Source: Paracoccaceae bacterium
GTDB lineage: Bacteria; Pseudomonadota; Alphaproteobacteria; Rhodobacterales; Rhodobacteraceae
Length of the DNA: 38,369 nucleotides
Direction: 5' to 3'
NCBI GenBank assembly: GCA_902554705.1
Contig: CACDPP010000019.1
Location: 1 to 38,369 of the forward strand
The notes under the pieces are model-generated. The model was not told the DNA's origin. It saw only the letters and a list, made by a program, of their open reading frames with translations, and did no database searches. Position 1 is the stretch's first letter. Each line of letters begins with the position of its first letter. This document shows positions 1-8,999 of the stretch, one piece after another. Both the position numbers and the translations under genes were made by a program.

Positions 1-2095
1 TTCCAGATGATTTTAATCGACTAACAGCTGAGTTCATAGAACTTTTGTTTGTTTTATTTCCAGGTATTTTTCTTGATCTTAGCGCATTTAGCACAATCTG
101 ATTTCTACTTTTGGGTCGAATATCATTAAGTAAGTCAAGAACTAAGAAGGTCATATATCCAGAACTAATAGACCAACGCTGTATTAACATATCATCTAAC
201 TTAGTTATTGGTTCAGCACTTTTGAGTTTAAATAATTTCAAATAATCTATCGACAAATCAAAATCGTTTGGACGTTCAAAAAAGGCGCCAACAGCCTCAG
301 CAGCATCAGAGGACAGCAAATCTTTAGCCTCTGATTTTTCAAGATTAGGCACTAAATCATTTTCACGACATTTGAGACATATACAGAGAATAGTACTCCA
401 TAAGTCTTTTAAATCCTGAATATATGCACTGTGGTTATCATGTCCAAACTCCACGAATAATGAGGCATTATTTAATTGGACTTCATCACCATCAATAACA
501 ATTGAGCCCAAGTTTAAGCGTCCGTGGTGCAAGTCGTTATTATGCAAATAATTGAGTGCGCGTAATATTTGTCTCAGCCAATCAAGAAGTTGCTGGTTTG
601 ATGCCTCTAAAAAAGCTTCTTCAAAATTCAGTCCATCAGACAAAGATTTACATACAGCAAAACAATCACTTTTGGGAACATAATCTAAATCAAAAATTCG
701 CTGTAAATTTGGGTGGAATGCTCGCATTAATGCCGTTATTCTACCTTGAGCGATGGGCCAGAGAGCCTCTGCCTCATAGATTTTCTCTACCTCACAACTG
801 AAGCGCCCTGCTATATGCGTAGCACTCCATATCTCAGACCTTTGATCATTGAATTTAAGTGATTCAAAATTTATCCGTCCAAAGAAAGGCTCTAAGTTTT
901 GATCCTCGGATGTATCTGCAGTCACTATCCCACTTATTGTCTTTGTTAAATAAAATTTTATTGTCTCAATATCTTCTTCGCTATCATCGTTAAACCAATT
1001 CTCAACTTCGGTGCTTGACAAAATAACTGCTAGATCAGAAAACAACCTTTTGAATGTTTGCGAAGGGCTTTCAGCTTCGCTTTGAATAAAATCCGCATAA
1101 AAAGTTACCTCGGAGTCGTCAGCAATAAGGATATTTGATTTCTCACAATTTGATAATGAAAGGCCCCTTGAGTTAATTTGTTCAATAGCATTAACAGCAA
1201 ACCTTAGGGCCTTAGCAATGTCAGTCACTCCTGGATTTTTTTGAAGAAATGCCTCTATCGAATTTCCTTGTGGGCGCTTTATAGCCAATGATAAGTACCC
1301 ATCACCACCTATCATGGGAGCACTAACGGGCACTCCTAGAACTCCTGATAATTGCTCTAACCTAGCGGCCTGATCAATTAGCCTTTCAGCATCCGCACTA
1401 GAACCTTCGGAAGTTATATCAACTTCTTTCAATATCCACTCGGTGATAAGCTCTCCCTGCTCATGCGTTGCTGACCAAATACTAATCGTTTGATCCGAAC
1501 CAAGTTTCTTTAATTTTTGAAACCCAGTTTTATCTGTTCTTTTGCTGGGAATTTTTCCAATATTTCCAAGGACATTTATTGCTTTTTTTCGCTGGAATGA
1601 TGTGATCTCGTAATGATATTCCGTTGTACAATAGTAAGGATCTGTGAGACCTTTAATAATATCTTTAGGTCCGAAAATACTGAGATTTTCCTGAGATTTA
1701 TCGAGATCAATGTCCGACCCCTCTCGTCCTGTGATAAAGACCATTCCTTGGCACCATGGCGCATGTTCTGATCGCAGCATACTGCTTTTAATCTGTCCAG
1801 CGTATACTCGAGCGATACCATTTACTTTCGCTAGAGCATTATCCACCCGAATGCCATCAAGCACCCAAGAATTTGCGTCTACAGACAGTTGGCCATGATA
1901 ACCTTTAATATCGATTAAATAGATAGCGTTTCGCCCAAAAACAATCGCATCAATTTCTTTCAATTGACCGTTTGGGGTTGGAATTTCTACGTTTGTTACC
2001 AGTAAATATTCATCTGGAAGATTTGATTTAAGAAATTCAAACGCCCATGCCTCAGCTGTGTTTACCGGCTCTCCAACTTTTATACCTTTAGCCAT
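1..2095 (-). CDS. NERD-domain protein with two degenerate kinase-like domains (PglW-like), 3' end outside window
   Basis: Open frame of 698 codons from the ATG at 2095 to the window edge without a stop, so the C-terminus is missing. Residues about 10-125 resemble a NERD nuclease domain: EIDAIVFG (48-55) then DIKGYHG (62-68), the D..D-x-K pattern of PD-(D/E)xK enzymes. Two kinase-like segments follow, each introduced by an IW-S-A-T-H motif (206-211 and 422-427). In the first (about 205-365) the HRD region reads RGLSLSN; a DF remains near 335. In the second (about 420-570) HPNLQRIFDLD and LNYLHNND look kinase-like, but HRD becomes HGR (524-526), the catalytic Asn becomes Ser, and DFG becomes N-A-S (543-545). 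NERD fused to kinase is the architecture of PglW of BREX type 2; here at least the second kinase looks inactive. The start overlaps the methyltransferase stop (TAATG), implying translational coupling. Function inferred: sensor, scaffold or nuclease in defence. Confidence 0.8.
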   Translation of the reverse strand, partial: MAKGIKVGEPVNTAEAWAFEFLKSNLPDEYLLVTNVEIPTPNGQLKEIDAIVFGRNAIYLIDIKGYHGQLSVDANSWVLDGIRVDNALAKVNGIARVYAGQIKSSMLRSEHAPWCQGMVFITGREGSDIDLDKSQENLSIFGPKDIIKGLTDPYYCTTEYHYEITSFQRKKAINVLGNIGKIPSKRTDKTGFQKLKKLGSDQTISIWSATHEQGELITEWILKEVDITSEGSSADAERLIDQAARLEQLSGVLGVPVSAPMIGGDGYLSLAIKRPQGNSIEAFLQKNPGVTDIAKALRFAVNAIEQINSRGLSLSNCEKSNILIADDSEVTFYADFIQSEAESPSQTFKRLFSDLAVILSSTEVENWFNDDSEEDIETIKFYLTKTISGIVTADTSEDQNLEPFFGRINFESLKFNDQRSEIWSATHIAGRFSCEVEKIYEAEALWPIAQGRITALMRAFHPNLQRIFDLDYVPKSDCFAVCKSLSDGLNFEEAFLEASNQQLLDWLRQILRALNYLHNNDLHHGRLNLGSIVIDGDEVQLNNASLFVEFGHDNHSAYIQDLKDLWSTILCICLKCRENDLVPNLEKSEAKDLLSSDAAEAVGAFFERPNDFDLSIDYLKLFKLKSAEPITKLDDMLIQRWSISSGYMTFLVLDLLNDIRPKSRNQIVLNALRSRKIPGNKTNKSSMNSAVSRLKSSG

Positions 2096-5000
2096 TAGCT
2101 TGACCGCGAGGATACTGGCGCAGCGAAGGAATCTGGCCAGCCTCCGTTTATATTTATTACGTCATCAATTTTTGCCATAATATGGATTGTTTCACCAACA
2201 GCAAAAATTAATTTATGGTAATGTCCAATATCTTCATCGGTCAGCGTTCGCCCAGGTTTTCCCTTTTTGGGGGAACGGTACTTGAGCCATTTTTCACATA
2301 CTTTATAACCGCCGATATGAAAATTCCAAATCTCTTTGCTAACAGGACTGAAACCGCTAGTGCCAGATTTAAAATTCTTGCCATTTCCACAACCATTGAT
2401 CCAAACAGTGCCACCATTTTCATCTGTCCAACCAACTTTTTCGACCTGCCTTTGACTTCCAAAAAATTTGTTACTTAGGTTCTCTAAATTTTTTGATTCT
2501 AGCAAATGATAGTTCACGAGATCACGCCCCAAGCAAACAAGTTGTTTAAACAAATCCAGCGTTTTAGGTAAGAAAATACGCGGGGCTTCAGAGGTGAGAG
2601 ATTGCATATTTGATGAACGGTAATAAGGAGAATGAAAAAGCGCGTAACAGTAATGCAAAATCTCTTCACTACCTAAGTAATTTTCAAAATCCCCTTCTTT
2701 AAATTCATCCCAAGTTAGGCCCAGATTAGCTGCAAATTGTTTGCCAAATATTGAAGAAATACATGACCTTTTGTCGAAGACCAGACCTCCATTTGAATAT
2801 TGATATAATGGGTAATAGGTAGCGGTTCCCTTCTTACTATAGAATATGCGAGCGTCCGGCACTTTTCGACTGACAAAAAAATGTGTTACTTCGCTTGGAC
2901 CATCAACCTGGTTTGCTAAGATCAAGCAAATTCCATCATCTCTCTTTAAATTTTTTCCAGCTACAGAGCTTGATGCCTTAAGTAATTTTGACGGCCAAGG
3001 AACAAAACGAAAATCTAACGGTCTATAAGAAAACTGAACAAATTCCGAGGTCTCTTTCGCCAAATCAGCAGTTTTTTCTTGATTACTCAGAAGCTGATTT
3101 GCCCAACCTTTCTGTCCAACTTTATATTTCTCAAATAGATAATCTGGTCTTTGTAAAATATCTGAAATTTCCTGAATTTTTTGACGTACTTCAAAGTCGG
3201 AAAAACCAATAAGTCCCTCATCAAAACCTGTTTTAATTCCTTCTGCATATACCGTAAAAGCAGTTTGAAAAGGCACTCCGTTTTGCCATAGAAATGATTC
3301 ATTGATTTGAGCAAAAATAAACATAGGCCCTTTTACTTCAATATTCTCAAATTTTGGCAATGCGGTTTGATTGGTCGTGAGCATTGCATATTTTTCAATT
3401 CGATCGCCCTTTACAATAAGATGCTTAATAGATTGACTTCGGTTTTTTGAAATTTTTTGTCGCCCTAAAATTGATATTGCCACCCCCTGGCTAATATCAA
3501 AAACATTCTCATCTTTGTCTCTGTCAAAGGAGCTTCCACTCAACTCACTACTTCCACCAAGATCAAAAATTGATAATTTTTGAAACGACCCTAGTAGTTG
3601 TGCTCTGACACCTCTAAACGTTTTTGCCGTAAGCCAAGAATTATTGGTAATCATTGCCATGATCGCCATTGAGGAACCCGATAAACAATCTTCTGCCAGA
3701 GCAAAAAATTTTATGTAATCGTCGTTTAGGTTGCGCTCAAGTTGAAGAGCATTCCGTTCCTGAAGTGGCTGGCCATCAATAACTTTATAACGATTTATCA
3801 TGCTTCTTTGATGTGCACCGAGGTTAGATGAAAAGTTTGAGTATGGAGGATTTCCTATTACTACTGTGAACTGTCGCTTCCGTTTTATTGAGTTTACTGC
3901 TTCAGCTTCCTTTGCCAATGCAGGTATAGCGAAAGCGAATGTACCTGAAGCATCCTGAGCAGGCTCAAGAGCATTTGTAAGATATATGCGTGCACGTTGA
4001 TCGCTCCTAAATCGATATCCAGTCTCGTAAAGTTTGAGCCCAATTTTCATATGCGCGATAGCGTATGGGGCCATCATTAACTCATATCCATGCAGCCGTG
4101 GAAGTAAGTTCTTTGGCACGTACTCATTCCAGAGTTCCTTAATCTGTGCTTCTCGATTACCCTGCTTCTGCCATTTAGCAGTCATCGTTTTGTAAATCAG
4201 ATCAATGACCTCTACTGGGAAAGTACCTGTGCCTGTGGCAGGATCAAGAATTTGGACAAAAGCCTGATCAGGAGAAGTACCTTCGGGGATTTCTACGTCA
4301 GCTGTCCGTTCAACCAACTCCCCCCAAGTAGTCGTATCAGCGAGCCCATCTTCTAATCCAAATTCCGTACGCAATTGCTCATCCACTGAACGAACGATGA
4401 AAGAAACAACTGGTTGTGGCGTATAAAAAACACCTCGCTCTTTCCTAATTTTACTATCATATTCTTGAAGAAATCCCTCGAAAAAATGCATGACAGGATC
4501 TTCTTTTTGATTGCGATCCCCAAAGTCACGCAAGACGGCTTCCATATTCGTATTGTCGAGTAGATCAACAACTTCGTTGATACCCAGCTCGTCAAAATCC
4601 AAACTGACACCACTACTATGATTACGGCCCCCCACACTTAAAAATGTCTCCATTAAATCTTTGAGAAATGGATTGGTTATTGGTATTTGGGTATGGGCTG
4701 CATCGGCCGTATTTGCTTTTGGATTAATGATGCGGGCCGACAATAGACCATAGGCGATTGTCTGAGCGTACATGTCTGAAAAGGAACCTGCATCGAGGTC
4801 TGAAATCAAATTTTGTTTAAATACTGACATCAGCTTATGAATAGGACCTTCCTCGCTTTCAATCGCAAGCACTTCACGTAAGCGAGTTCGGACTGCTAAG
4901 GCTAATTGTCCCAGACGCTCAGCCATTTCTTTGGAACTTTGAATAACTTCACGATTTTTAAGCGTAAACGCATCTCGCCACTGAGCTCTCCACGCGTCAC

Positions 5001-5544
5001 TGTCGGTTGGGTTGTCAGGCCAAATCAATTTTTCGCGCAGCGTTTCTATGACGTAATCAATTTTAAGCCCAGTATCATCGTCGTCCCAACCTAATACTTT
5101 TAATATAGGAAGATCTGTCTTCTCTGGATTAGAGGCAAAATGCGCAAAAGAAATGCTCTTTGCCCCAAGGCTGCCTGTTTGCGAAATCAACAAAAGGTCA
5201 CTCTCATGCCATGACGCCCGGTCGCCTGAATTACTGGTAGATCGTTTGTTAAGTACCAACTTACTCAAAAGTCTTCGAAGCGCGACAACCGGCAGTTTGT
5301 TATCATCAAAGCGTATAAAGAAAATGCCCCACGGCTGGTTTTTATCCAACGGTCTTAAGCGACGTATTTCTAGGAACTTTGGGGCAGTTTTTTCATCCAA
5401 ACCGAGTTCAGCTGCAGAATACTCAAATGTCATTTCTTCAAAGTTGTCAGTTTCTATCGGCCAATCAAGTTCATCGCCCAGGTAGTTCACCAACTCAGAA
5501 AATTCTCTTATAGATCTAAAACTATTTGCAGCAGTTGGGCTCAT
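2095..5544 (-). CDS. Type ISP-like N6-adenine DNA methyltransferase/specificity protein
   Basis: 1149-residue protein. The gamma-class adenine methyltransferase core is plain: GVFYTPQPVVSFIVRSV (371-387), motif I LDPATGTGTF (433-442) for S-adenosylmethionine, and motif IV VVIGNPPYSN (561-570). The C-terminal part (roughly 700-1125) resembles the target-recognition and C-terminal domain of type ISP restriction enzymes (LlaGI/LlaBIII family), including IGGYKVCEKWLKYR and a following LTDEDIGHYHKLI segment. Unlike true type ISP enzymes it has no N-terminal nuclease-helicase; its N-terminal 350 residues are an unassigned soluble region. The helicase gene ends 15 bases upstream and the NERD gene overlaps its stop, so the three are one operon. 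Expected role: methylate host adenines in a specific site and supply target recognition to the separate motor. Whether it restricts or only modifies cannot be read from sequence. No clear Shine-Dalgarno precedes the ATG. Confidence 0.87.
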   Translation of the reverse strand: MSPTAANSFRSIREFSELVNYLGDELDWPIETDNFEEMTFEYSAAELGLDEKTAPKFLEIRRLRPLDKNQPWGIFFIRFDDNKLPVVALRRLLSKLVLNKRSTSNSGDRASWHESDLLLISQTGSLGAKSISFAHFASNPEKTDLPILKVLGWDDDDTGLKIDYVIETLREKLIWPDNPTDSDAWRAQWRDAFTLKNREVIQSSKEMAERLGQLALAVRTRLREVLAIESEEGPIHKLMSVFKQNLISDLDAGSFSDMYAQTIAYGLLSARIINPKANTADAAHTQIPITNPFLKDLMETFLSVGGRNHSSGVSLDFDELGINEVVDLLDNTNMEAVLRDFGDRNQKEDPVMHFFEGFLQEYDSKIRKERGVFYTPQPVVSFIVRSVDEQLRTEFGLEDGLADTTTWGELVERTADVEIPEGTSPDQAFVQILDPATGTGTFPVEVIDLIYKTMTAKWQKQGNREAQIKELWNEYVPKNLLPRLHGYELMMAPYAIAHMKIGLKLYETGYRFRSDQRARIYLTNALEPAQDASGTFAFAIPALAKEAEAVNSIKRKRQFTVVIGNPPYSNFSSNLGAHQRSMINRYKVIDGQPLQERNALQLERNLNDDYIKFFALAEDCLSGSSMAIMAMITNNSWLTAKTFRGVRAQLLGSFQKLSIFDLGGSSELSGSSFDRDKDENVFDISQGVAISILGRQKISKNRSQSIKHLIVKGDRIEKYAMLTTNQTALPKFENIEVKGPMFIFAQINESFLWQNGVPFQTAFTVYAEGIKTGFDEGLIGFSDFEVRQKIQEISDILQRPDYLFEKYKVGQKGWANQLLSNQEKTADLAKETSEFVQFSYRPLDFRFVPWPSKLLKASSSVAGKNLKRDDGICLILANQVDGPSEVTHFFVSRKVPDARIFYSKKGTATYYPLYQYSNGGLVFDKRSCISSIFGKQFAANLGLTWDEFKEGDFENYLGSEEILHYCYALFHSPYYRSSNMQSLTSEAPRIFLPKTLDLFKQLVCLGRDLVNYHLLESKNLENLSNKFFGSQRQVEKVGWTDENGGTVWINGCGNGKNFKSGTSGFSPVSKEIWNFHIGGYKVCEKWLKYRSPKKGKPGRTLTDEDIGHYHKLIFAVGETIHIMAKIDDVININGGWPDSFAAPVSSRSS

Positions 5545-5559
5545 TAAATTTACATAACT

Positions 5560-8500
5560 CTAATTTATTTCCATCCAAGCTAGAAGCTTTGGCTTGGCGC
5601 TAATGGGTGCTTCCACTTTTTTAAGATAACTATTCTTAATATGCTTTTGAACTTTTTCTCGAATATCAATAAGTTGTTCCTGGGTATTGATACACTTCCG
5701 AGGCTCTTCAACTGAACACTTTATGGATGTGATGATTTCAGAAACTTCTTGAAGCACATCGCCACTTACCATTTCATACAGATACCATTGGCACGGCCCT
5801 TGCTCTATAATGAAGTCTTCTAGCTCTACGTTCCAAGCTGGCAATCTGTAACAAAAAAACACACCCACAGTACCCTTTTTGGGAACTGCCCGACCACTGA
5901 ATATACTTCCTGGAAAATCGTCTAACCGTTCTTTTAAGTTAGGAATACTTTTTAACAGTTCCTGCAACTCAAGTTGTAAATTTTCAAGTAATGAACGCTC
6001 GCCCTCATATCCAGCATTAAACTCGCGCAAAGCATCAAACTCATCTTCTGGGGTCATGAGCCTGCGACCCTCTATGCCCATGGTTTTAGAGATCAACAAT
6101 GTTTTCCGAGTTACAGTATTATACAGACTGAGCAAGGTATTTAATTCGTTTGGCGGCAAAAAATTCCAAAATGTTACTTTTCCTCTATCCGACCGTAAAT
6201 CTGGGCAGTCTTCAAAAAGTTTAGTCTCAACCACTGGATCCATTCGCCTGTCAACACGACCAATTCTCTGCATCAATCGTACCGGGTTCCAGTGAATATC
6301 ATAATTGATTAGACGGGTACTGTCTTGGAGGTTAAGTCCCTCAGAAAGCACATCTGTTGCAATTAAGATTCTAATCTCTTCTAAGCCTTCTTCAACTAAT
6401 CCTGCTGAACTTGTTGAATTATAATAAGGCGCAAATCTGCGAACCGCATCATATCTAGTACCTGCAGAACCTCCATCTATTTTTGCTAAGCCATCAAAGC
6501 CATCCTCTTTTAAATTGCTTTCCAAGTAGCGTGCAGTGTCCGCAAACTCTGTAAAGATTATAACTTTTTTACCAGTAAACTCTTTACTCTTCAGCATACG
6601 CTTCAGCTTATTAAGTTTATCATCTCTCGCAGGTTTGAATTTTCGAGTTTCTTTCAAAAACTTAATAAGTTCATCTAAATCCTGCAAAGTAATATCAATT
6701 ATTGATGCTACATCGTATTCATCACGCTCAAGCTTTTCCCACCTCTCTAATAGCTCTGGTGGGAAAAGTTCTGGATCGTCTTCCTCTTCTTTATCCCACA
6801 ATTCGAGTTGCTTATTAGCTGCATAATTCAGAATTGTTTCGTTTTTTGCAATCCATTGCTTAAAGAGTTGTTTTTCATGGTCTGTCTCACAGTGCATTTC
6901 TAAAAAGGCTAGTAATTTTCTGAGCAACCTATCGCAGGAAGTTTCAAAAGCATAAACTGAACTTTCAAATCTTTTAAGAAACTGGGTTCTTATGAGCGTA
7001 ACGACATTTCTTAGTCTTGTTCTATGAAAAGGGTCTATCTCATCTGCATCTCCAAGGTAATATTCCACTGGGTTATAGACAACCAAACTAAAAAGTGGAG
7101 AAGAACGCTCAAAAGCACGCTCAATTAAACCCAAAAGAGCACCGTAGGTCTTAAAAATCGAGTACTCTGCTACTTTTGGTTTTTGCCGCTGGGGAAAAGC
7201 TGCCGCCTCGCCATACTCCTTTTTCTGGCTTTCTATTGCATATGCCCTGCTGCGCTGAACAATTAGACTTTCAAAAATTTGATCACTGTCTAAGACCTCC
7301 TTGATTGCTGCGGGATTGTCACCAATACTTTCAGCCGCTTCGGATAGATTTTTTTCTAATTCTCTTTGAAGTCGATTGAAATGATTACGAAGGCTGTGAA
7401 CTCCAAGTGTCCTTGAAAAATGTGCTTCATTCCCATTTGTAAATAGTTCTATCATATGTCTTATGTCACTTAGCTTATTATTAATTGGTGTCGCTGTGAG
7501 CATGAATAATTTTTTATTCGGGTTTCCTTGATGAATTAAATCCATAAATTTATAATATCGCGAGCGCTTAATACCTATTTCTAGATCGCCTCTACGTCCT
7601 GGGTTTCTGAAGTGGTGAGCCTCATCGACAATTACAACATCAGCAATTTCAGAAATGCGTTTAAACCGTCCTGGATATTCACCTTCGCGATTTAAGTCTG
7701 TATGCGAAAATACTGCAAGATTTGAAAAATCTGTTCCAAAAAGATCTGGTAGCAATTCTCTGAGTTTGGGATCCCAAACACCTTCTTTTGCACCTTTAGG
7801 CGCAAATAAGACAACATGCTTTTTTTCTCGAACCATCCGTTCTATCAGCATTAACCCAACAAACGTTTTCCCGAGTCCCACGCCATCACATAAAAATGCT
7901 CCATCAAAGCGACTAGCTATCTTTACTAGCGACCAATATGCTTCTTTTTGATATTGATCTAATTTTGAAAATATAACAGACTCATTTTCTTCCCAAACAT
8001 TTGCAGACTCCTCTCTGTCACGAAACAATTCTCTAAGTGAATGCGAGTAAATATCAAAAGGAGACCAAGCTTTTGTGTGACGCTGTATTATTTTCACTAT
8101 CTCATCAGAAATATCTTCTGCTTCATTCCAGTATTCTTCGTACCAATTTTGGAGTTGGGCCACTTCACTAGGGCTTTGAATTTGAACATTAAGCTCTACG
8201 TTTTGATTCAACCCTGGTTTTGTAAAGTTACTGGAACCAACTAAGGCTTTTGAGCCTACAATGTCTAATTTAGGGTGCGTTATATATGCTTTTGCGTGAA
8301 ACTTGGATTTATTATAAGCTCTGCACTCAATTTTACCGCTAATAATCGCTTTAACAACGGCATCAATACCATTCAAAAAAGGATTGTCATTTTTAATTAA
8401 CTCTAGATCCGTGTCGACGGTGAAATTAGCTCTATTTTTAAGAGCTTCAAGAAAAAGTCTTTTAGTTCTATGAGTTGTTTCATCTCCCATAAGAATACGA

Positions 8501-8733
8501 ATTTTCTCAAGTTTCTGCCAATGGCCGTCAAGAGCCAGTAGAGCCCCAGTCTCAAAATAACCAGTAGCTATATCAAAACTAGTAGAGATTTCGGTCCATT
8601 GCTCAAGATACTTTATACCCGTCCAGCCGGTTAATGAGTTATCAACGATAAAAAGGTCACCACCCGACGGTTTCAATTTGTTATTACCTTTTAAACTTCC
8701 AGCTAAAAATACTTTTTCATGGATATAGTCCAT
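5560..8733 (-). CDS. PLD-family nuclease fused to SNF2-type helicase
   Basis: About 1057 residues from the ATG at 8733 (in-frame TTG codons at 8742 and 8739 are alternatives; none has a good ribosome site). Residues about 30-210 form a phospholipase-D-like domain with one HKD-type motif: FHAKAYI (H149, K151 in the 1060-residue numbering from 8742) followed by GSSNFTKPG (169-177) and N-x-E. Superfamily 2 helicase motifs follow: Walker A DGVGLGKT (286-293), DEAH (373-376), TAT (416-418), then a C-terminal lobe with KVIIFTEFADTARYLE, ATDVLSEGLNLQ and QRIGRVDRR. This is a DNA translocase with a linked nuclease-like module. It is the first gene of the left-edge operon; the methyltransferase starts 15 bases after its TAG. 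Families of this shape occur in phage-defence islands next to large adenine methyltransferases. Role inferred: translocation and cleavage of unmodified DNA. Confidence 0.85.
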   Translation of the reverse strand: MDYIHEKVFLAGSLKGNNKLKPSGGDLFIVDNSLTGWTGIKYLEQWTEISTSFDIATGYFETGALLALDGHWQKLEKIRILMGDETTHRTKRLFLEALKNRANFTVDTDLELIKNDNPFLNGIDAVVKAIISGKIECRAYNKSKFHAKAYITHPKLDIVGSKALVGSSNFTKPGLNQNVELNVQIQSPSEVAQLQNWYEEYWNEAEDISDEIVKIIQRHTKAWSPFDIYSHSLRELFRDREESANVWEENESVIFSKLDQYQKEAYWSLVKIASRFDGAFLCDGVGLGKTFVGLMLIERMVREKKHVVLFAPKGAKEGVWDPKLRELLPDLFGTDFSNLAVFSHTDLNREGEYPGRFKRISEIADVVIVDEAHHFRNPGRRGDLEIGIKRSRYYKFMDLIHQGNPNKKLFMLTATPINNKLSDIRHMIELFTNGNEAHFSRTLGVHSLRNHFNRLQRELEKNLSEAAESIGDNPAAIKEVLDSDQIFESLIVQRSRAYAIESQKKEYGEAAAFPQRQKPKVAEYSIFKTYGALLGLIERAFERSSPLFSLVVYNPVEYYLGDADEIDPFHRTRLRNVVTLIRTQFLKRFESSVYAFETSCDRLLRKLLAFLEMHCETDHEKQLFKQWIAKNETILNYAANKQLELWDKEEEDDPELFPPELLERWEKLERDEYDVASIIDITLQDLDELIKFLKETRKFKPARDDKLNKLKRMLKSKEFTGKKVIIFTEFADTARYLESNLKEDGFDGLAKIDGGSAGTRYDAVRRFAPYYNSTSSAGLVEEGLEEIRILIATDVLSEGLNLQDSTRLINYDIHWNPVRLMQRIGRVDRRMDPVVETKLFEDCPDLRSDRGKVTFWNFLPPNELNTLLSLYNTVTRKTLLISKTMGIEGRRLMTPEDEFDALREFNAGYEGERSLLENLQLELQELLKSIPNLKERLDDFPGSIFSGRAVPKKGTVGVFFCYRLPAWNVELEDFIIEQGPCQWYLYEMVSGDVLQEVSEIITSIKCSVEEPRKCINTQEQLIDIREKVQKHIKNSYLKKVEAPISAKPKLLAWMEIN

Positions 8734-8910
8734 TTTCAACAATTAGTTATTTGATTGAGGAGTCGATTGGTTCGCAGCTTTTATAATTGATAAGGAACAA
8801 TCCAGCCATCTGTAAGCATTAACTGAAGTTTTATTATGGGTAATATTGTGGGTAGGAGAAAAATTATTTTTTCAAAATACAATCAATTCAACAATTTAGG
8901 TTAATTTAGT

Positions 8911-8999
8911 GGCGGAGACGAAGGGATTCGAACCCTCGAGACGATTCCTCGCCTACTCCCTTAGCAGGGGAGCGCCTTCGACCACTCGGCCACGTCTCC
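8911..8999 (-). tRNA. tRNA-Ser (anticodon GCU)
   Basis: The reverse strand folds as an 89-base class II tRNA. The 7-bp acceptor stem GGAGACG/CGTCTCC is followed by discriminator G and an encoded CCA (8911-8913 on the plus strand read TGG). The anticodon stem CTCCC/GGGAG encloses loop CTGCTAA, giving GCT at 8963-8965. A long variable arm and the GGTTCGAATCC T-arm are present. It reads the serine codons AGC and AGU. Its 3' end faces the defence operon, which makes it a candidate island attachment site. Confidence 0.95.

Follow-up and report, generated by a model that had tools for sequence, protein, structure and literature searches.

A conserved PLD-nuclease/SNF2 translocase and adenine methyltransferase gene pair as a candidate split ATP-dependent restriction-modification system

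The window analysed here is the whole of contig CACDPP010000019.1 (C19; 38,369 nucleotides), one of 79 contigs in a 69%-complete assembly (GCA_902554705.1) of a Paracoccaceae bacterium. Its left end carries three adjoining open reading frames (ORFs) that run in the same direction on the minus strand, to which their domains and the tRNA gene given below also belong: gene 1 (5560-8742), encoding a PLD-nuclease fused to an SNF2-type superfamily 2 (SF2) translocase; gene 2 (2095-5544), encoding an adenine methyltransferase with a Type ISP specificity domain; and gene 3 (2-2095), encoding a NERD-pseudokinase. Genes 1 and 2 probably (at a probability of about 0.72) form a two-subunit ATP-dependent restriction-modification system, resembling a Type ISP enzyme divided over two chains. 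This reading draws on gene order, conservation, intact motifs, a hypervariable recognition region and the presence of defence genes near some orthologues. The coordinates and spacing reproduce those of an earlier note on this DNA, which had described three large co-directional genes with gaps of 15 and -1: 15 bases separate gene 1 from gene 2, whereas gene 3 shares a single base with gene 2 within TAATG. Gene 3 is likely to be coupled translationally to gene 2 at this locus.

The conserved unit consists of genes 1 and 2. In profile searches of 32 other loci (L003, L004, L057-L081, L137, L140, L141, L154 and L165), 28 have a homologue of gene 2 immediately downstream of gene 1 and in the same orientation; L138 and L139 were dropped as duplicates of the L003 and L004 contigs, and L164 (G810), whose broken methyltransferase starts at a contig end, lies outside the set. 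L067, L069 and L078 break off at a contig end. The partner is present in 24 of the 28 loci found via gene 1 and in all four found via gene 2. The scan of genome contigs with gene 1 kept the best 80 of 583 relatives and is thus no census; within these 80, tblastn identity is 46-57% for 24 genome loci and 85% for L073, and a clear gap separates these orthologues from the remaining 55 (26-30%). The pair is rare yet scattered over bins of many phyla, comprising Acidobacteria, Actinobacteria, Bacteroidetes, Lentisphaerae, Planctomycetes, Thermoflexus, Proteobacteria and an archaeon; of 398 genomes sampled at phylum level, only the genome studied here and one other match with an E value of 1e-150 or lower. 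The pair has its nearest relative in a Planktomarina bin (L073; 85%/94% identity), on a 3.2 kb contig that ends inside the methyltransferase; judging by L073, the host may be a marine roseobacter near Planktomarina. Two viral contigs also carry gene 1 relatives at 56-57% identity (tblastn), and plasmid relatives, among the 40 listed of 527, reach at most 28.6%.

The product of gene 1 (1060 residues from a TTG start, with an in-frame ATG at 8733) scores over the Pfam cut-offs for Helicase_C, PLDc_2, ResIII and RE_NgoFVII, and slightly under that for SNF2-rel_dom (22.3 of 24.9). Its PLD-like nuclease domain (Pfam PLDc_2; residues 53-205, positions 8128-8586) contains H149-x-K151, S170-x-N172 and N181-x-E183, and all of these residues are identical in the 26 covering rows of a 28-row orthologue alignment, from which L078, L079, L137, L154 and L165 are omitted. 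The SF2/SNF2 motor identified with Pfam (residues 264-833, positions 6244-7953) has a Walker A lysine, K292, and a DEAH box at residues 373-376; K292, D373 and E374 are identical in 27/27 covering rows of the same alignment. Overall orthologue identity, calculated in blocks of up to 50 residues, ranges from 36 to 76%.

Gene 2 encodes 1149 residues and exceeds the Pfam cut-offs for Type_ISP_C, Eco57I and N6_Mtase. The N6-adenine methyltransferase core (positions 3550-4500; Pfam and alignment) contains DPATGTGTF and NPPY, which we take to be motifs I and IV, respectively. In a 24-row orthologue alignment, which omits the split L061, L065 and L077, the four loci without a methyltransferase, L154 and L165, D434 is identical in 23/23 covering rows and NPPY in 20/20; G440 is not invariant (18 G, 5 A). 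The Type_ISP_C specificity domain (PF18135, 162.8 bits) spans residues 762-1123 (positions 2176-3261) and overlaps the hypervariable part of the recognition region (residues 701-950, positions 2695-3444), where mean identity per 50-residue block falls to 15-19%, compared with 34-68% over residues 1-700 and 32-46% beyond residue 950 (L073 omitted from the means). Hypervariability of this kind is the apparent pattern of diversifying target recognition, and its combination with retained catalytic residues reads as a restriction-modification signature. The partner methyltransferases of L059, L060, L064, L072, L081 and L154 are some 190-370 residues longer (1336-1516 residues), and in L059, L060, L064, L081 and L154 the extra residues are C-terminal.

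The N-terminal domain of gene 2 (residues 1-192, positions 4969-5544) lacks a conserved PD-(D/E)XK motif in a motif check, whereas this motif is present in the N terminus of 9/9 related methyltransferases that have no PLD-SNF2 partner. These relatives are called partnerless because their loci, 3.7-5.7 kb in length, show no match to gene 1; they derive from ten matches (L144-L153), of which L149 was not assessable and two, L150 and L153, belong to the same genome. Alignments with plasmid relatives of gene 2 begin only at residue 165-229 (30 listed of 238 records). The comparison suggests that the PD-(D/E)XK domain of the partnerless relatives has been swapped in gene 2 for an unrelated N-terminal domain.

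In the mechanism that we propose, the gene 2 subunit would recognize its target through the Type ISP specificity domain and methylate adenine on host DNA, and unmodified sites on incoming DNA would trigger the gene 1 subunit. Gene 1 would dock on the methyltransferase subunit, probably on its N-terminal domain, translocate along the DNA and then cut with its PLD nuclease. The single PLD site per chain implies that gene 1 would be a dimer when cutting. The predicted outcome is defence against phage, and the modification-based, defence-related character that the earlier note had assigned to the whole locus narrows, on present sequence evidence, to the helicase/methyltransferase pair, for which it looks sound.

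Known systems share parts of this design. Type ISP enzymes are described as single chains that unite an Mrr-family nuclease, an SF2 motor, a methyltransferase and a recognition domain (PMC4666363). The N6-adenine methyltransferase core and the recognition domain of the Type ISP enzymes LlaBIII and LlaGI align with gene 2, whose fold resembles LlaBIII in a structure comparison, and the logic of an SF2 motor plus a nuclease is common to both. However, the present pair consists of two polypeptides instead of one, its nuclease is of the PLD and not the Mrr family, and the motor resides on the nuclease subunit. The same union of PLD nuclease and SF2 motor that characterizes gene 1 occurs in the ATP-dependent PLD nucleases SauUSI and CglI/NgoAVII, SauUSI being a PLD-SF2 enzyme in one chain (PMC7913695). 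SauUSI recognizes modified cytosine with its own target recognition domain, whereas recognition here appears to lie in the ISP-type methyltransferase subunit; CglI/NgoAVII differ in that their motor is on a separate subunit and their PLD domain is accompanied by a B3 domain. In class 1 DISARM, an SNF2 helicase (DrmD) lies next to an adenine methyltransferase (DrmMI). The locus studied here differs from it in the fusion of PLD to the helicase and in the ISP-type recognition domain, and none of the three genes is a drmA, drmB or drmC. PbeA joins an HKD nuclease and an SF2 helicase in one protein, and the systems to which it belongs can include a DNA methylase (PMC10853773). Gene 1 scores only 49 bits against PbeA, and neither an ABC ATPase nor DndE, as in PbeABCD/CxC-ABC-DndE, is found among the three genes. 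The ARMADA operon is defined with a YprA-like helicase (PMC12458937).

Gene 3 is open at the contig end: the contig starts at base 1 inside it, and the 698 residues that can be read have a MAD6/PglW-like N terminus (Pfam and curated profiles). The NERD nuclease domain (PF08378; positions 1733-2059) scores 48 bits, over the cut-off, with an E value of 1.3e-13 in the genome scan, and D49 and D62-x-K64, presumably the NERD motif residues as judged by eye, are present. A single weak kinase-like stretch follows (positions 491-772; Pkinase E 7e-4, 19.4 bits against a cut-off of 31.7), in which HGR occupies the HRD position and the catalytic aspartate is replaced. With a kinase profile built from two MAD6-like proteins, gene 3 scores 15.5 bits as compared with 92.8, 96.3 and 36.3 for three held-out relatives, and its kinase-like sequence therefore looks degenerate. 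Of the NERD protein with kinase-like domains described in the earlier note, the NERD domain thus stands and one weak kinase-like match is recovered; a second, more N-terminal kinase-like repeat is suspected by eye only. The best curated match is to MAD6 (143.6 bits over residues 1-243), followed by PglW (66.7 bits), so that gene 3 is closer to MAD6 of MADS than to PglW of BREX type 2, the protein previously pointed out. What gene 3 shares with MADS (mad6) and BREX-2 (PglW) is the N-terminal NERD domain; it differs in its degenerate kinase-like sequence, and the rest of MADS or BREX is unseen in the readable DNA. The MAD6 encoded in a MADS-like plasmid operon is 40% identical to gene 3 over 106 columns. 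The best-scoring plasmid relative (H3) belongs to an operon with matches to mad2, mad3, mad5, mad6, mad7 and mad8, one gene between mad3 and mad5 having been left unscanned. A MADS-like operon of a Piscinibacter plasmid (L190:6600-23422) encodes a MAD6-like protein of 1391 residues and a last gene of 1858 residues.

The three genes had been read in the earlier note as one defence system, and conservation across genomes divides them. Genes 1 and 2 do co-occur, in 28 loci, but neither a tblastn search nor small NERD and kinase profiles (E up to 1), which detected the held-out relatives L054-L056 as a control, reveal a NERD or kinase frame at any of the 32 orthologous loci, and the single three-gene system is not upheld; this is an outcome that the earlier note had named as refuting it. 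That gene 3 would be an essential sensor or effector of a three-gene or longer system, in a lineage-specific form, is accordingly unlikely, even though the TAATG overlap joins it to gene 2 and its nearest plasmid relatives lie downstream of methyltransferase and specificity genes. In 20 of the 28 pair loci, at least 1 kb of sequence follows gene 2; the remaining eight, with less than 300 bases, are uninformative on gene 3, and one of them is the closest relative, L073, where a third gene could follow the interrupted methyltransferase. Searches of 15 further genomes of the genus, many of them incomplete, and of 243 further genomes in the order sample likewise did not detect gene 3, and a class sample of 385 returns three weak NERD-only matches. 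Gene 3 is thus probably outside the conserved core, and its lack in orthologous loci argues that it was added locally or opens a second, MADS-like module; it would most likely be a recruited auxiliary sensor or back-up nuclease, or the first gene of such an adjoining module. A tentative extension of this idea, doubtful but less so than an obligate three-gene system, is a hybrid immune operon in which the split ISP-type core has captured a NERD-pseudokinase sensor of the MADS/BREX-2 type and more MADS-like genes lie beyond the left contig end. In such an operon, what the restriction core detects would also set off a second response, possibly a suicidal one, and the NERD-kinase module would be exchangeable between unrelated methyltransferase-based systems. 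Markedly less probable is a DISARM, BREX-2, MADS or HMA locus cut by the contig end. The DNA left of gene 3 lies outside the window, gene 3 resembles MAD6 and PglW, and gene 1 resembles DrmD (141.5 bits) and HmaA (84.3 bits); however, the scores for DrmD (cut-off 610), PglW (66.7 of 990), MAD6 (143.6 of 460) and MAD2 (23 of 720) are far under the curated cut-offs, those of gene 3 being lowered by its incompleteness. They fit no textbook locus, in line with the view already taken that the combination matches neither DISARM nor BREX exactly. Neither PglZ (PF08665) nor DUF499 (PF04465), the ATPase that forms part of HMA (helicase-methylase-ATPase), has a match in the 69%-complete assembly, and no DISARM or BREX family occurs in 98 proteins neighbouring the orthologous pairs, among 25 of 108 families in a PADLOC scan and 25 of 41 in an NCBIfam scan. 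A search for mad7 gave no match in the assembly and was silent in control genomes too; mad8 was not searched there.

Several observations weigh against a split restriction-modification system. The Foldseek top match of gene 2 is DrdV, which comes close to the LlaBIII score in the structure comparison, PADLOC would assign gene 2 by itself to Type IIG (512 bits), and its N-terminal domain may be an unusual nuclease. L071 keeps gene 1 and 3 kb of downstream DNA without a methyltransferase. Four further pairs (L061, L065, L077 and L079) look broken, the methyltransferase being split into adjacent frames; in L079 the helicase is also split and the spacing between the two genes is ~0.8 kb, and these are likely to be decayed or misassembled copies. 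The NCBIfam scan of the neighbours returns mostly ordinary metabolic, housekeeping or conjugation genes. A self-contained Type IIG-like gene 2 next to a separate, stand-alone PLD-helicase defence gene is nevertheless the least probable of the readings considered: the two genes are paired in 28/29 assessable loci, and the nuclease motif of the partnerless relatives is missing from gene 2.

No description of the gene 1-gene 2 pair was found in the literature surveyed, which includes PMC12839542, PMC12458937, PMC7913695 and PMC10853773 and leaves most subscription papers outside it. The pair suggests that the design of a one-chain restriction enzyme can be rebuilt from exchangeable parts, with cutting seemingly outsourced to a PLD-motor subunit. 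If functional, it would represent a two-gene, sequence-specific ATP-dependent restriction system whose recognition domains have been diversified in nature, and would open the split between recognition and motor subunits to direct study.

Defence genes are present next to some orthologues; no enrichment is claimed. The scans covered 98 ORFs close to the pair, out of 156 neighbouring ORFs of at least 260 residues in the orthologous loci; among the 98, L072:13117-17331 is itself a diverged partner methyltransferase. A GajA/GajB-like (Gabija-like) gene pair adjoins the pair in L059 and a DRT1a gene adjoins it in L060. The candidate defence gene PDC-S68 (RecD-like) occurs downstream of the pair in three loci, directly in L070 (L070:16551-20339), after one ORF in L060 (L060:21296-23185, a member by clustering) and after two in L059 (L059:20304-23123). 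PADLOC also reports IetA/IetS, PsyrA, a Type III restriction gene and several methyltransferases among the neighbours; LmuB matches are doubtful and may be SMC proteins, because an SMC match appears in the NCBIfam scan. One of the 98 proteins matches DndB (TIGR03233).

Upstream of gene 1, a tRNA-Ser(GCT) gene (8910-8999) lies next to a ychF-like core gene, its 3' end 167 bases from gene 1. In the congeners L182, L183, L187 and L188, the ychF-tRNA-Ser(GCT) block is followed by differing genes, with a further ORF between in L188, and the contigs of L184, L185 and L186 stop ~0.2-0.8 kb past the tRNA. The region 3' of ychF-tRNA-Ser(GCT) therefore reads as a variable insertion site.

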